This document shows positions 25,989 to 44,735 of a stretch of DNA of 64,000 nt, piece by piece. Numbering within the stretch: position 1 is the first letter of the stretch; each line of letters starts with the position of its first letter. The notes beneath the pieces were generated by a model. It saw nothing but the letters and a program-made list of their open reading frames with translations, ran no database searches and was not told where the DNA came from. This DNA is from Chitinophagales bacterium (lineage in GTDB: Bacteria > Bacteroidota > Bacteroidia > Chitinophagales > UBA10324), in NCBI GenBank assembly GCA_019694975.1, contig JAIBAY010000002.1, positions 385,252-449,251 of the forward strand, in the 5' to 3' direction. The position numbers and the translations under genes are program-made.

Positions 25989-28900
25989 ATGAAAACACCA
26001 TTACCCGCTTTACTCCTGCTTGCAGGCATTGCTTGCTATTGTCCATCTGTAAACGCTCAGTCGGCGTGGTCTAGCGCTGCACCGCTTGGCCACGGTGCCA
26101 CGCCTCGCTACAATGCCTGCGCCATGTCAATTGGCAGCAAAGGCTATATCGGAACCGGTTTTTACAACTCCAATTTTTACAGTGATTTTTTTGAGTTTGA
26201 TGGCGCCAACAACATCTGGAGCCAAAAAGCATTTTTTACCGGCGGCAACAGGTCGGGAGCAACGGCATTCTCCATTGGCTTAAAAGGTTATATCGGCTTA
26301 GGGTATGATGGATTGAACTACAAAGATGATTTTTGGGAATATGATCAGGCGGGTGAGACCTGGACGCAAAAAGCCACTTTTCCCGGCACAGCAAGGTCAG
26401 GCGCCGTTGGCTTTGCTATTGGCACCAAGGGTTATGCAGGTACAGGTTATACAGGCACTGTGCGTAAAAATGATTTCTGGGAATATGAACCTGCAACCAA
26501 TACGTGGACGCAAAAAGCAAATTTTGGCGGTGTTGGGAGGTCAGCAGCAGCAGGTTTTGCTATCGGCACCAAAGGTTACTTAGGCACCGGCTATGACGGC
26601 ACCAACAGGAAAACAGATTTCTGGGAATTTGACCAGGCTTCTAATACATGGACGCAAAAGGCGGCCTTCGCAGGCAGTGCAAGATCTAACAGTGTTTCCT
26701 TTGCCATCGGCACCAAAGGTTACATTGGTACGGGGCTTGACGGAACCTATAAGAATGACTTCTGGGAATATAATCCTTCTACGAATACCTGGACTTCTAA
26801 AGCCACATTCGGCGGTGCAGGACGATACAATGCAGCCGGATTTTCCATTGGAACCAAAGGTTATATAGGCACCGGTTTTGACGGGATAACTGCACGTTAT
26901 GATTTTTGGGAATATGACCAAACTACCAACACCTGGTTGCAGAAATCCGCTTTCGGCGGATTTGCCCGTACAGGTGCTGTTTCCTTCACCCTCAACAATA
27001 AGGGATATGTCGGAACAGGTTACGATGGCAACAATTACACCAATGACTTCTGGCTGTTTGATCCATCCAATAATCAATGGACACAGAAAGCCAGTTGCCC
27101 CGGCAGTGGCAGAACGGGTGCCATTGGATTTGCCATCAATTCTAAAGGTTATATGGGCACGGGTTACAACGGTACCTACCTGAATGACTTCTGGGAATAT
27201 GATCCTGTTGCCAACTCCTGGACACCGAAAGCAAATTTTGGCGGAGCAGGCCGCGCTGAAGCAGCAGGCATGGTCATCAATGCCAAAGGTTATATCGGTA
27301 CGGGCACTTCCGGAAACTCAAAATCGGATATGTGGGAATTTGATCCTGTCGCCAATACATGGATGCAAAAGAATGACTTCCCCGGAGGAAACCGGCAGGA
27401 AGCCTGTGCTTTTTCAGTCAATTCAAAGGGATACCTTGCTACAGGTGTAGATAACAGTGAATCCTTTTATGATGACTTATGGGAATTTGATCCAGCCGCA
27501 AATACGTGGCTGCAAATCGCAGATTTTCCGGCTGGCACACGAAAAGGTGCCGCTGCCATTACCTTCAACAATAAAGGATATGTGTGTGCAGGAATTGACC
27601 AGCAGGGACTGAATCAACGTGATTTCTGGGAATTTAATCCAGCCACCGGCGGATGGACAAGGAAAGCCGACTTCATGGGAACAGCGAGAAACAGCAGCAT
27701 CATGTTCACCACTGAATCCACTATTTGGTCCGGATTTGGTGATGACGGCTCTATCTATAAGAATGACCTGTGGAAGTTTAATCCAGCCAATAGTATTACG
27801 CTGCCCGGCCCGGGATTTTGCGCAGGATCTTCATTCATCATCACCTTTACGGATGCTAACTATGCATTTGCCGGTAATGTTTACACGGCGCAACTCTCCA
27901 ATGAATCAGGGAGTTTTAGTGTACCGGCAACCATCGGTACATTAGCTTCCACTGCTTCAGGTACCATGCCGGTAACATTATCACAGGGATTAGTCGCAGG
28001 CACGAATTATAAAATCAGAATTTTGTCCAGCAACCCGGTACAAACGCTCGACACTTCCTCCTCATTTTCTGTTTACACAGCACCAACTATTATTTCCTGT
28101 CCGCCACCGGTAACTGCAAATACTGACTTGAATTTATGCAGTGCAACCGTTTCATTTGGAGCAGGTCAGGCATCAGGAATTCCGGCACCGGTATTCAGTT
28201 TTTCACCAGCGAGTGGTTCTACTTTCGCAACAGGTGCTACCAATGTTACGGCAACAGCAAGCAATACCTGTGGCACAGCCAACTGCAGCTTTATAGTGAC
28301 GATAAACGACAATCAGTCTCCCGGCATAATCTGCCCTTCACCCGTAACAATCAATGCAGGCAGCGGATTATGTTCAGTGACGGGTGTGAACCTGGGAACG
28401 CCAGTCACCACGGATAACTGCGGCATAGCTGGTTTTTTAAATAATGCACCCTCCACATTCCAGGTAGGCACTACCAATGTGGTATGGAAAGTCAATGACA
28501 TCAACGGAAATATGGGCCAATGCCTGCAAACCGTTACGGTGGTCGATAATCAACCGCCGGTAATTTCCAATTGCCCGAATAATATTTCTGGTTGTTCCAG
28601 TATCGTTTCATGGGTTCCACCTGTTGCCGCCGACAATTGCGGAGTTGCCTCACTCACAAGCAACAAGTCTCCAGGTTCCTCCTTCCCGAATGGAATCACC
28701 AATGTAACCTATACAGCAACAGATGTAAACGGCAATTTCTCCACCTGTTCCTTTACGGTAACAGTTGCTGCACCGGTTTATACCGTTACGCCCACCGGGT
28801 CTTCTGCCTTCTGTATTCCCGGAGGCGTGAAGATGACAGTGTCGCCTGCAGGTGATGCATACCAATGGTATAAAAATAATGTTGTCATTTCAGGCGCCAC

Positions 28901-40023: not shown

Positions 40024-41688
40024 TCAGCTTACACCAATGATTTTGCCGTCAACCACATCAATGAAGTTAGCCTGCGGCACTTTGGGTAAACCGGGCATGC
40101 GCATGATTTCACCACAGACGGCCACAATAAATCCTGCTCCCGTACTGATCACCAGGTCTTCCACATCAATACTGAAGTTGCCATCCAGCCCATTCACGGA
40201 AGCATCATCTGTAAAAGAATATTGTGTTTTAGCCATACAGACGGGGAGATTTTCAAGTCCCAGTTTTTTGATTTTTTTAATCATTTCCTGCGCCTTCTTA
40301 TACAATACCACTCCTTTTCCGCCATAGATGGTGGTGACAATCTTGTGCAGTTTGGTTTCAATGTCATCGGATAATTCATACGTATGATTCAATGCCGGTG
40401 AAGGCTCCGCACAGATCTTTACTGCAGCGTTTGCCATTTCCAAAGCACCTTCACCGCCCAGTGCAAAGCCATCATTCACCGCGAAGCCATCTGACCTGCT
40501 GCTGCACCATTCCCGCATAAAATCGATTTCTTCCTTCGTATCGAAATGATAGCGGTTCAGCACCACCAATACTTTCTGGTGAAATGATTTAAGAATGGCA
40601 ATATGCCTTTCCACATTACGCAAACCCTGCGTGAGTGCATGGAGGTCGGGCAGCATCATTTTAGTTTCTGCTATGCCACCGCTGAGTTTTATTGCCTGCG
40701 AAGTAACCACCAATACACTCATCGCCGGTCTGATACCTGCCTTCCTGCATTTGATATTGAAGAATTTCTCTGCACCAAGATCGCTGCCGAAGCCCGCTTC
40801 GGTAACCACATACTCGCCAAACTGCATTGCTGTTTTAGTGGCCATGATTGAATTGCAGCCATGGGCAATATTGGCAAAAGGCCCGCCATGCACCATGGCA
40901 GGTGTTCCTTCCAGCGTTTGTACCAGATTGGGTACGATGGCATCCTTTAAGAGGGCAGTGATGGCGCCTGTTACACCAAGATCTTTTGTGGTGAATGGCT
41001 CATTGGCAAAAGTAAATCCAAGCAACATCTGATCAATTCTTTCCCGCAGTTCATCAATACCTTCCGAAAGGCAGAGCACGGCCATGAATTCACTGGCCGG
41101 CGTGATCACAAATCCTGTTTCAGAAGGAATGCCGTTATTCGGAACATCAAGTGCGGTGACAATCTTCCGCAACACTCTGTCATTCACATCAAGGCAACGT
41201 TTTAACAAAACCGTTTTGATACCTTCCGGTTTTCCACGATTGAAGAAACGGTAGTTATCCAGCAATGCCGCCAGCGTATTATTGGCAGCGGTGATGGCAT
41301 GAAAATCACCGGTGAAGTGGAGATTGATCTCCTCCATCGGCACCACCTGCGAATAGCCTCCGCCTGCAGCGCCGCCTTTCATCCCGAAGCAAGGACCTAA
41401 TGAAGGTTCACGGAGCGCCAGCACTGCCTTTTTGTTCAACTTTCGTAATCCGTCGGAGAGGCCTACTGATGTTGTTGTTTTTCCAATGCCTGCTTTGGTG
41501 GGTGTCATTGCTGTAACCAAGATCAGTTTGCTGGCGGCAATTTTTTCTTCATCAAATTGCCTTATGTTCACCTTCGCCTTATGATAACCGTAAGGAATCA
41601 CCATATCGGGCGGCAAACCCATACTGTCAGCCACTTCGGCAATGAAGCGCATTGGCTTCTCCTGTGCAATCTCATAATCTGATTTCAT
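40024..41688 (-). CDS. fhs: Formate-tetrahydrofolate ligase
   Basis: Joins formate to tetrahydrofolate using ATP, giving 10-formyl-THF for purine synthesis and C1 metabolism. The 554-residue length from the ATG at 41688 matches the family (about 555-560). Visible motifs are KSDYEIAQ at the N-terminus, the P-loop region TPTKAGIGKTTTSVGL, PSLGPCFGMKGGAAGGGYSQ, HFTGDFHAI, GCNSIMATK, VTEAGFGSDLGAEKF and the C-terminal YGGKGVVLYKKAQ. The frame extends 12 codons to 41724; the usual N-terminus MK(S/T)D-EIAQ favours 41688. It is followed by tRNA-Gln on the opposite strand. Confidence 0.93.
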   Translation of the reverse strand: MKSDYEIAQEKPMRFIAEVADSMGLPPDMVIPYGYHKAKVNIRQFDEEKIAASKLILVTAMTPTKAGIGKTTTSVGLSDGLRKLNKKAVLALREPSLGPCFGMKGGAAGGGYSQVVPMEEINLHFTGDFHAITAANNTLAALLDNYRFFNRGKPEGIKTVLLKRCLDVNDRVLRKIVTALDVPNNGIPSETGFVITPASEFMAVLCLSEGIDELRERIDQMLLGFTFANEPFTTKDLGVTGAITALLKDAIVPNLVQTLEGTPAMVHGGPFANIAHGCNSIMATKTAMQFGEYVVTEAGFGSDLGAEKFFNIKCRKAGIRPAMSVLVVTSQAIKLSGGIAETKMMLPDLHALTQGLRNVERHIAILKSFHQKVLVVLNRYHFDTKEEIDFMREWCSSRSDGFAVNDGFALGGEGALEMANAAVKICAEPSPALNHTYELSDDIETKLHKIVTTIYGGKGVVLYKKAQEMIKKIKKLGLENLPVCMAKTQYSFTDDASVNGLDGNFSIDVEDLVISTGAGFIVAVCGEIMRMPGLPKVPQANFIDVVDGKIIGVS

Positions 41689-42018
41689 CTTAAACAAGTT
41701 TTTAACCGGTATTGAATACCCCATGAAATATATTGAGGGAAGTTAAAATCAGCTGATTCCAAATTTTTCATTATGACCTTTATCACATTGCAGCATGATC
41801 GTAATCAGCAGCCATAATCCAAATTTGAATCCGTTGATCGGTTAAGCAATATCTGTAATTCAAATCACCTTTCAAATAATTCCGTCACTTATCTGAAATC
41901 CGGTAATTGATGATAACAGAAGTGCCTGCCATAAAAATACATTGCGCCAAGCCGTTTGTCAGTAAGCTGTTTCAAAAAAAATGAATTTATACTTTGACAG
42001 GTGCTTCGTCATAAAATG

Positions 42019-42060
42019 GCTTCAACAATTTTCAGATCCTGATAAAAGAATTGTTGAAGC
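42019..42060. repeat. Long imperfect hairpin
   Basis: Outer arms GCTTCAACAATT (42019-42030) and AATTGTTGAAGC (42049-42060) pair perfectly over 12 bp, and TCAG/CTGA can pair again inside around an ATC loop. On the plus strand it is followed by AGGCATTTTTGC. It lies about 330 bases upstream of the formate-THF ligase start and about 60 bases before the small-RNA promoter. Confidence 0.6.
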
Positions 42061-42122
42061 AGGCATTTTTGCATAATGCAGGAATCACCAACAAAAGTCA
42101 CAGGGCTGTATGACAAATATCA

Positions 42123-42153
42123 TTTGCAACCGCTACCACCCTATTTACTTTTG
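42123..42153 (+). promoter_or_regulatory. Full Bacteroidota promoter of the candidate small RNA
   Basis: TTTG at 42123-42126 or one base in (TTTG ends at 42126), a 19-base spacer and TACTTTTG at 42146-42153. This is as good a match as the tRNA-Gln promoter in the same window. Confidence 0.75.
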
Positions 42154-42159
42154 GATCAT

Positions 42160-42325
42160 GATAAATCCTGCTACTCAGATTACCATAAAATGCAGGCAAA
42201 CATGGTTCATTTTGTTTTCATGCGCGTGAGATAAAGAGAACTGGTTGCAGTTTAAGAGCAAAAGGGTGTTTGAGTTAGTAGTTTGGATTTGGTTGCGGCG
42301 GATGTCATTCCGCCGCAATTTTTTT
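42160..42325 (+). ncRNA. Candidate small RNA of about 165 nt, unrecognised
   Basis: The unit is delimited by a consensus promoter (TTTG-N19-TACTTTTG) and a strong rho-independent terminator, with no protein gene between them. The start is estimated as about 7 bases after the -7 element. The only frame is 23 codons from ATG 42158 to TGA 42229, whose start would coincide with the RNA start, so a leaderless micropeptide is possible but less likely. I do not recognise a known class (tmRNA, 6S, RNase P, SRP). Direction is plus, toward the T9SS gene at 42639, but the terminator should isolate it. Confidence 0.5.
42293..42325 (+). terminator. Rho-independent terminator of the candidate small RNA
   Basis: Arms TTGCGGCGGA (42293-42302) and TCCGCCGCAA (42309-42318) form a perfect 10-bp GC-rich stem with loop TGTCAT, followed by seven T. 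Confidence 0.92.
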
Positions 42326-42638
42326 GCAGGCATGTCTACAGCCTATGCCACCGGATTTCGGAAATTCAGCAAAACGAGAAAACCGTTCGGTACGCATTTT
42401 TCTGCCTACAGCAATATTTTTCACGTATTCAGCACCAGGTCATAACTCTCCTGTCACAGGTTCATAAGTTTTGCCTTCAGAAGGACCGGCAGTTTATACC
42501 ATCAACTGCCAAACGGAGTATGCTAAAGCAATCAAACGGTTTCTGCAGGAAGGCAACTCAACGCTGGAACACATGCGTTTACATGAATCAGGGTACCCGC
42601 ACTTATTAAACCATTTTCACTGATAAATTAACCAACTT

Positions 42639-44735
42639 ATGAAAACAATTAAACGATCCGTAAATCAATGGAGACTGATTGTGCAGGCTTTATTTATTCT
42701 TCTCCTTACTATTCCAGCATTTGCACAGGCTCAGACCTGGAAATCGCTCGGCTCCGGTGTACCTTACTGGAGCTATTCTGTGGGCACATGGAATAATCAA
42801 TTATTTGCAGGTACCACAGGCGGAATTTATAAATGGGACGGTCAGTCGTGGACCGTTGTGGGTGATGGCCTGAACGGTGAAGTGGATGCCATACTGGAAT
42901 ATAATGGCGAGCTGATTGCTGCGGGAAAATTTACCATGTCAGGCACGAAGACATTGAATTTTATCGCGAAATGGAATGGTACTACCTGGAAAGATATGGC
43001 AGGTGGTATGAACAGCTATGTTACATCACTTGCAGTTTACAATGGAAAACTGATAGCCGGTGGTTATTTCACCAAAGCAGAAGGCACCGCTAAATATATT
43101 GCACAGTGGGATGGTTCGCACTGGACATCGCTTGGCAGCGGCATGGGCGGCACACAAGGCCAGGTAATGGCGCTTACCGTTTATGGCAGCGATCTGATTG
43201 CAACCGGCTTCTTTACCAAGGCTGGTGGCATGAATGTGAACTACATCGCTAAATGGAATGGCACTGCATGGTCTGCATTAGGCAGCGGCCTTGGATATAT
43301 TGGATATGCACTGACGGCATATAATGGCAAACTCGTTGCGGGCGGATTATTTTCATCAGCGGGTGGTGTGAGTGCAAGTGATATTGCCATGTGGAACGGA
43401 TCATCATGGTCAGCTTTGGGCACAGGCATTGGTGGCGGCGTATATGGATATGTATTCGCATTGACCGTTTACGGTTCCGACCTGGTGGCAGCCGGCATAT
43501 TTACAACAGCAGGCGGATTGAGCGCAGCCAACATTGCAAAATGGGATGGTTACGCTTGGTCTCCACTGGCTGGAAGTATGTCAAGCGGAGGCACGGTGCA
43601 AGGCATTTTCGGATTGGTAAATTTTGGCGGTGATGTGGTGGCAGGCGGCATATTCGATGCAATAGAAGCAACCGGCTCCCCCAATGTGGCAGCCGTTAAC
43701 TACACACCTTCCGGCAATTTTATCACTTCAGTCACAGCACCATCATCACCCTACTGCAACAATCAGGTTGTCAATATCGGGTACACTGTAGTGGGTGCAT
43801 TTACCGCCGGGAATGTTTTCACAGCACAACTTTCTGATGCAAACGGCAGTTTTACCGCACCGGTAACTATCGGTACAAAAAATTCCATTGCATCCGGGAT
43901 GATAGTTGCCACCATTCCCAATAATACACTTACCGGCAGCAAATACAGGATCCGTGTCGTGAGTTCCAATCCCGTTGTTTCCGGACCTGACAATGGAACC
44001 GACCTGGTGATCGGTACGCCTATTTCTACCAACGACCCAACCGCCTTTTGCGTTGGAGGAAGTGCAAAATTGACGGTGGTTACGCCTGCCATATCTTATC
44101 AGTGGAAGATGAATGGCGCCATTATTCAGGGTAAAACGGCTCAGACCTATAAAGCTTCTGAAGCCGGAAATTATACTTGCGATGTGACTAACAGTTGTGG
44201 TACTACCACTTCAAATACGATAGCGCTTACCACTAATCCAAAACCAACCTCCACTATCTCCGTCGGAAACTGTGCTGCAGGTATTGTTACACTTACCGAC
44301 ATTGCCAGCCCTGCTACCGGCGTAACTTACAAGTGGACCCTTAATGGAAACAATATCAGCGGCGCAACAAATTCAACATACGCCGCAACAGTGAGCGGCT
44401 CCTACAAATGCAAGGTTACCATTATTGAAACGGGTTGCAGTGCCAATTCAAAATCTTCTTCGGTAACAATTACCTGCAAAATGCATTCATCTGATATGAA
44501 CACTTCCATTAGTGTTTTCCCAAATCCCTCCGGCTATTATTTCACGATCAGCGATCTGGCAACCGGTATCGTGCATAATATTGATGTTTTCGATATCACG
44601 GGACGACACATTGAAAACGCGGCTACGTCGGATAATGAAATTCGAATCGGTGAAAGCTGGTCGCCGGGTATTTATTTTGCAAGAATCTCCGATATCAATG
44701 GTGAAGATGAAGTAATCAAACTTATAAAAGACTAA
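42639..44735 (+). CDS. Secreted propeller-like protein with Ig modules and T9SS sorting domain
   Basis: 698 residues. Signal peptide about 1-32 (ending AFAQAQ). Residues 33-355 hold about seven repeats of roughly 45 residues with the patterns IAKWNGTAWSALGSG and LTVYGSDLVAAGIFTTAGG, expected to form a beta-propeller. An Ig-like region follows (about 370-455), then two short Ig-like modules with YQWKMNGAIIQGKTAQ and YKWTLNGNNISGATNS, and a T9SS sorting domain from VFPNPSGYYF to the end. Secreted or surface role likely, molecular function unknown. Confidence 0.85.
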   Translation: MKTIKRSVNQWRLIVQALFILLLTIPAFAQAQTWKSLGSGVPYWSYSVGTWNNQLFAGTTGGIYKWDGQSWTVVGDGLNGEVDAILEYNGELIAAGKFTMSGTKTLNFIAKWNGTTWKDMAGGMNSYVTSLAVYNGKLIAGGYFTKAEGTAKYIAQWDGSHWTSLGSGMGGTQGQVMALTVYGSDLIATGFFTKAGGMNVNYIAKWNGTAWSALGSGLGYIGYALTAYNGKLVAGGLFSSAGGVSASDIAMWNGSSWSALGTGIGGGVYGYVFALTVYGSDLVAAGIFTTAGGLSAANIAKWDGYAWSPLAGSMSSGGTVQGIFGLVNFGGDVVAGGIFDAIEATGSPNVAAVNYTPSGNFITSVTAPSSPYCNNQVVNIGYTVVGAFTAGNVFTAQLSDANGSFTAPVTIGTKNSIASGMIVATIPNNTLTGSKYRIRVVSSNPVVSGPDNGTDLVIGTPISTNDPTAFCVGGSAKLTVVTPAISYQWKMNGAIIQGKTAQTYKASEAGNYTCDVTNSCGTTTSNTIALTTNPKPTSTISVGNCAAGIVTLTDIASPATGVTYKWTLNGNNISGATNSTYAATVSGSYKCKVTIIETGCSANSKSSSVTITCKMHSSDMNTSISVFPNPSGYYFTISDLATGIVHNIDVFDITGRHIENAATSDNEIRIGESWSPGIYFARISDINGEDEVIKLIKD

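Follow-up and report, generated by a model that had tools for sequence, protein, structure and literature searches.

The 914-base intergenic stretch between fhs and the gene of a T9SS-sorted protein, in the 4.3-Mb genome of this Chitinophagales bacterium, very probably contains a real RNA gene, about 165 nt long and strongly transcribed, as it joins a rare pair of transcription signals to a promoter box of the kind found at tRNA and tmRNA genes. The transcription unit is strongly indicated by its promoter and terminator, and the candidate is best regarded as an orphan RNA gene that is well supported and of an ordinary kind. The window referred to below is the whole 64,000-nucleotide stretch of DNA that was analysed, which encodes T9SS-sorted proteins and carries Bacteroidota-type promoters. 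The features of the locus, in window coordinates, are as follows.

40024–41724, minus strand: fhs (Pfam FTHFS)
42123–42153, plus strand: Bacteroidota-type promoter with −33 box TTTG(CAA), 19-base spacer and −7 box TACTTTTG (from the sequence)
42158–42325, plus strand: predicted transcript, noncoding and about 165 nt long (from promoter and terminator)
42162–42184, plus strand: closing stem, 5' strand, 21 pairs end to end (fold prediction)
42185–42204, plus strand: central bubble, 5' strand, largely unpaired, with a weak alternative pairing UGCAG/UUGCA across the bubble (fold prediction)
42205–42241, plus strand: apical hairpin, whose 5' strand and loop contain UGUUUUCAUG (fold prediction)
42242–42263, plus strand: central bubble, 3' strand (fold prediction)
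42264–42291, plus strand: closing stem, 3' strand (fold prediction)
42291–42325, plus strand: intrinsic terminator hairpin and seven-T tract (terminator scan)
42639–44735, plus strand: gene of a T9SS-sorted (secreted-type) protein, the next gene 3' of the candidate (Pfam Por_Secre_tail)

Transcription signals and genomic context

The promoter of the candidate (TTTGCAACCGCTACCACCCTATTTACTTTTG; 42123–42153, plus strand) agrees with the consensus TTTG-N19-TACTTTTG that an earlier note on this DNA had reported, and its claimed parity with the tRNA-Gln promoter holds, as the exact pattern TTTG-N19-TANNTTTG occurs in the window only at the candidate and at tRNA-Gln (39622), against 0.38 sites expected. 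The terminator, which heads the terminator-scan list, begins 137 bases past the promoter. The 10-bp GC stem followed by seven T that had been described there is borne out as a strong terminator with seven T (42319–42325), while the hairpin itself (42291–42320) turns out to comprise 12 pairs including G-T, with seven G-C pairs. The start of the transcript is placed 5–7 nt past the −7 box (42158–42160) and its end in the U-tract (about 42325). The enclosed 165 or so bases are free of protein genes, as had been proposed, the longest complete ATG open reading frames being of 23 and 14 codons, and neither Rfam nor Pfam reveals a known RNA or protein family between the two signals; the Rfam covariance-model search gave no match at a useful score, in keeping with the earlier statement that no known RNA class is recognisable.

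A census of the same signals was made in 2.064 Mb of the candidate's genome (about 48%), read in stretches, using the pattern TTTG-N18-20-TANNTTTG with a terminator within 450 nt and 40 dinucleotide-preserving shuffles as control. The promoter pattern alone is found at 43 sites against 39.5 in shuffles, and hence shows no excess, whereas promoter and terminator within 450 nt coincide at five sites against a shuffled mean of 0.075, and promoter and strong terminator at four sites against none in 40 shuffles, so that it is the signal pair, not the promoter alone, that lies far beyond chance. The five paired sites belong to tRNA-Gln, tRNA-Phe, rpsT (S20), an HU-type gene and the candidate, and perfect promoters also precede tRNA-Leu, tRNA-Lys and tRNA-Val. 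A −33 box of the TTTGCAA form, combined with a −7 box, is present at nine sites in the stretches read. Five belong to tRNA-Gln, tRNA-Lys, tRNA-Val, tmRNA and the candidate; the remainder comprise a gene of 457 codons, another structured site between genes and two places within long open reading frames. Since the candidate shares this form with tRNA-Gln, tRNA-Lys, tRNA-Val and tmRNA, its promoter sequence belongs to the class that serves the stable RNAs of this organism.

The same reading yielded another unannotated structured RNA candidate (contig C4, stretch 60001–80000, approximately 10834–10665 of that stretch, minus strand; promoter TTTGCAAAGCGTACAGTGCGTGATGTATGTTTG), which is flanked by the genes of a cation-ATPase and an S41 peptidase, has a fold z of −5.4 over 197 nt and gives no useful Rfam match.

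The candidate had been placed downstream of fhs, which is incorrect because fhs is on the minus strand and points away; the two are divergent, with some 400 bases between the start codon of fhs and the candidate upstream of it. The product of fhs shares 49–50% identity with its counterparts in the same family, where the gene is present in 8 of 16 genomes, but 81–82% with proteins of MAGs labelled Chitinophagaceae, a distribution which suggests that fhs has probably undergone horizontal exchange. Two further elements are seen in the intergenic stretch. A perfect 11-bp inverted repeat (CTTCAACAATT ... AATTGTTGAAG; 42019–42075) followed by ATTTTT is located just 5' of the candidate promoter and may be the terminator of some other unit, and a stop-free, protein-like tail (PAVYTINCQTEYAKAIKRFLQEGNSTLEHMRLHESGYPHLLNHFH; 42440–42625, plus strand) has no Pfam match and is possibly a gene remnant.

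Predicted fold and the 6S hypothesis

The RNA is predicted to form a rod, in which a closing stem, a bubble of about 20 nt per side and an apical hairpin are followed by the terminator; this outline derives from one sequence. With the terminator included, the RNA of 168 nt has a predicted folding energy of −55.3 kcal/mol (z −4.5 against shuffles), while without the terminator its z of −2.1 is only moderately unusual, and the pairing of its ends over 21 bp is equalled by 1 of 1000 shuffles. A rod with a central bubble is the outline of 6S RNA, for which reason 6S was the first hypothesis tested: the bubble would mimic an open promoter and hold RNA polymerase, which would make the candidate either a homologue of 6S that has diverged strongly or an analogue in function. 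Bacteroidales-1 (RF01693), described in Rfam as '6S-Bacteroidales RNA suggested', and 6S-Flavo (RF01685) are similar to the candidate in length and in their strong promoter, and the fold predicted for the candidate would match theirs in the rod outline, the closing stem joining the ends and the central bubble.

The Rfam 6S and 6S-Flavo models have no match in the candidate's genome, and across 148 genomes of the order no match exceeds the cut-off, while Bacteroidales-1 gives full-length sub-threshold matches in three relatives. A structure model (R2) built from two of these Bacteroidales-1 matches and a 6S-Flavo match in a further genome detects 6S-like RNA in 77 of 298 genomes of the order, and with R2 and the broader model R3 this RNA, of the Bacteroidales-1/6S-Flavo kind, is recovered below the Rfam thresholds in at least ten families. 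In an alignment of 42 members, all 28 pairs show changes on both sides, and 86% of cells are paired against 62% in shuffled and 37–48% in slid alignments, values biased in favour of the structure as the alignment was fitted to it. The core is clear: one side carries GGGCGGGCC, the opposite side GGGGAUUACC.

This core (GGGCGGGCC ... GGGGAUUACC) is absent from 42158–42325, and the candidate likewise has no (G)GGCGGGCC...GGGGAUUACC, the form shared by the 6S-like RNA of at least ten families of the order and Bacteroidales-1. It has no match to Rfam, and neither R2 nor R3, the latter even with its filters switched off, gives it any score, while R1, the structure model built from the candidate, matches none of the 42 6S-like RNAs. 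The candidate thus shows none of the sequence features of 6S that were tested for, and its membership of 6S was rejected on model scores and the missing core. In R3 searches, no 6S was found in the candidate's own genome or family, and four matches (L180–L183) were discarded, as they contain no core and resemble coding sequence.

The broader proposal of a 6S-like RNA is judged unlikely. In its favour are the length, the tRNA-class promoter, the paired ends, the central bubble, the apical arm and the terminator directly after the closing stem, as well as the fact that Rfam and our own models, R3 included, find no other 6S in the candidate's genome or family; the failed model searches and the missing core weigh against it, and a paired-end rod is not specific to 6S. 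The lack of any detectable 6S in the whole family gives scope for a heavily modified one. In actinobacteria, Ms1 RNA has a 6S-related shape and binds core polymerase, yet is not a plain 6S (PMC9130861), and the candidate would parallel it if polymerase binding held for this RNA too, although it belongs to another phylum and has no known sequence relation to Ms1. That it is the polymerase-binding 6S-like RNA of a Bacteroidota family which has lost the 6S core of the phylum, a promoter mimic either rewritten or independently arisen, is an improbable reading.

Homologues, function and alternative readings

A DNA search of 99 related genomes returned the candidate itself and chance matches only, and R1 gave only chance matches in 39 related genomes. 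The DNA match in relative G034 was rejected, as it lies inside a kdpA-like gene, as was a 30-bp match on contig C3 of the candidate's own genome, which covers the terminator only and lies inside an AraC-like frame; tblastx of the latter extends to 13 residues only and supplies no pseudogene link beyond that. R1 matches in relatives G008 and G026 fall inside coding frames and were also rejected. No counterpart is found by fhs synteny in relatives, upstream of fhs in five MAGs with fhs 72–82% identical, or in plasmid and phage collections. Consequently, the fold is without covariation support, and DNA search, structure model and fhs neighbourhood give no sign of selection on the candidate.

The earlier note had made conservation in close relatives a test of its proposal, and by that measure the result counts against it, with the limit that both same-genus genomes compared are only partly complete (74% and 86%), all other relatives being distant. 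What it had called a candidate unannotated small RNA is well supported as an RNA gene whose promoter is of tRNA grade and whose terminator is strong, but not as novel in the strong sense. As the same-genus genomes are incomplete, the absence of homologues is evidence for a narrow distribution and not proof of no function, and the RNA appears to be restricted to this species or close kin.

Could the signals have come together by chance in a decaying intergenic region, with no functional RNA? The lack of homologues in relatives, fhs-bearing MAGs, plasmids and phages speaks for this, but as 0.075 signal pairs are expected in 2.06 Mb and five are seen, four of them at real genes, it is very improbable. 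A 5' leader whose terminator controls the T9SS-type gene at 42639 by attenuation is a rather doubtful alternative: this gene is the next downstream on the same strand and both signals lie upstream of it, yet its start codon is 313 bases away from the U-tract, inspection by eye shows no convincing antiterminator pairing, and no Rfam riboswitch or leader matches. The L20 leader (RF00558) was rejected at 18.2 bits against a cut-off of 58.7, as its match rests on the terminator hairpin and the downstream gene encodes a T9SS-sorted protein rather than L20; the S15 leader match is far below cut-off. A very short mRNA, with either a leaderless AUG at 42158 opening a 23-codon frame (MINPATQITIKCRQTWFILFSCA) or an AUG at 42190 opening a 14-codon frame, seems quite improbable, for although AUG 42158 falls at the expected transcription start, frames of such length are expected by chance, neither has a family match, and no homologue was found that would share either frame.

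The candidate has what marks an intergenic sRNA gene, namely its own promoter and terminator without a recognisable protein frame, and base-pairing sRNAs are the commonest fate of such genes. The reading that we moderately favour is a lineage-restricted intergenic sRNA that acts in trans by base pairing. A free-standing gene (plus strand, 42158–42160 to about 42325) would be transcribed by the housekeeping (sigma-ABfA type) RNA polymerase up to the intrinsic terminator, and the resulting noncoding RNA of about 165 nt would regulate by base pairing through a seed in either the open bubble or the apical hairpin, which is itself weak. Of this proposal, the mechanism is the weakly supported part, a guess by analogy with the intergenic sRNAs of Bacteroides, for which base pairing is the most likely choice. 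In Bacteroides thetaiotaomicron, 124 intergenic sRNA candidates have been listed (PMC7366714), which indicates that such RNAs are common in the phylum. The candidate resembles the trans-encoded intergenic sRNAs of Bacteroidota, for example those of B. thetaiotaomicron, in its position, its own housekeeping promoter, its intrinsic terminator and a length within 100–200 nt, but no sequence relation to them was found.

The motif UGUUUUCAUG in the apical hairpin is complementary to AUGAAAACA, which occurs at the start of several genes, including the neighbour at 42639 and a kelch-repeat gene at 25989. The best duplex is formed with the start of the latter (−24.2 kcal/mol, two blocks of pairs being possible), but is not significant, since 10 of 120 shuffles match or beat it, and pairing with gene starts is for this reason suggestive only. 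Complementarity to start regions places the candidate in the top 2% of intergenic segments for 9-mers and the top 8.5% for 10-mers, a weak enrichment.

The test of the 6S hypothesis has brought to light that 6S-like RNA goes undetected at the Rfam thresholds throughout this order, and the census of promoters plus terminators offers a means of locating RNA genes in Bacteroidota that is both simple and very specific. The noncoding RNAs of the candidate's branch of this phylum are little described, and the candidate, if transcribed, would be among the unannotated RNA genes that look strongest in this genome.
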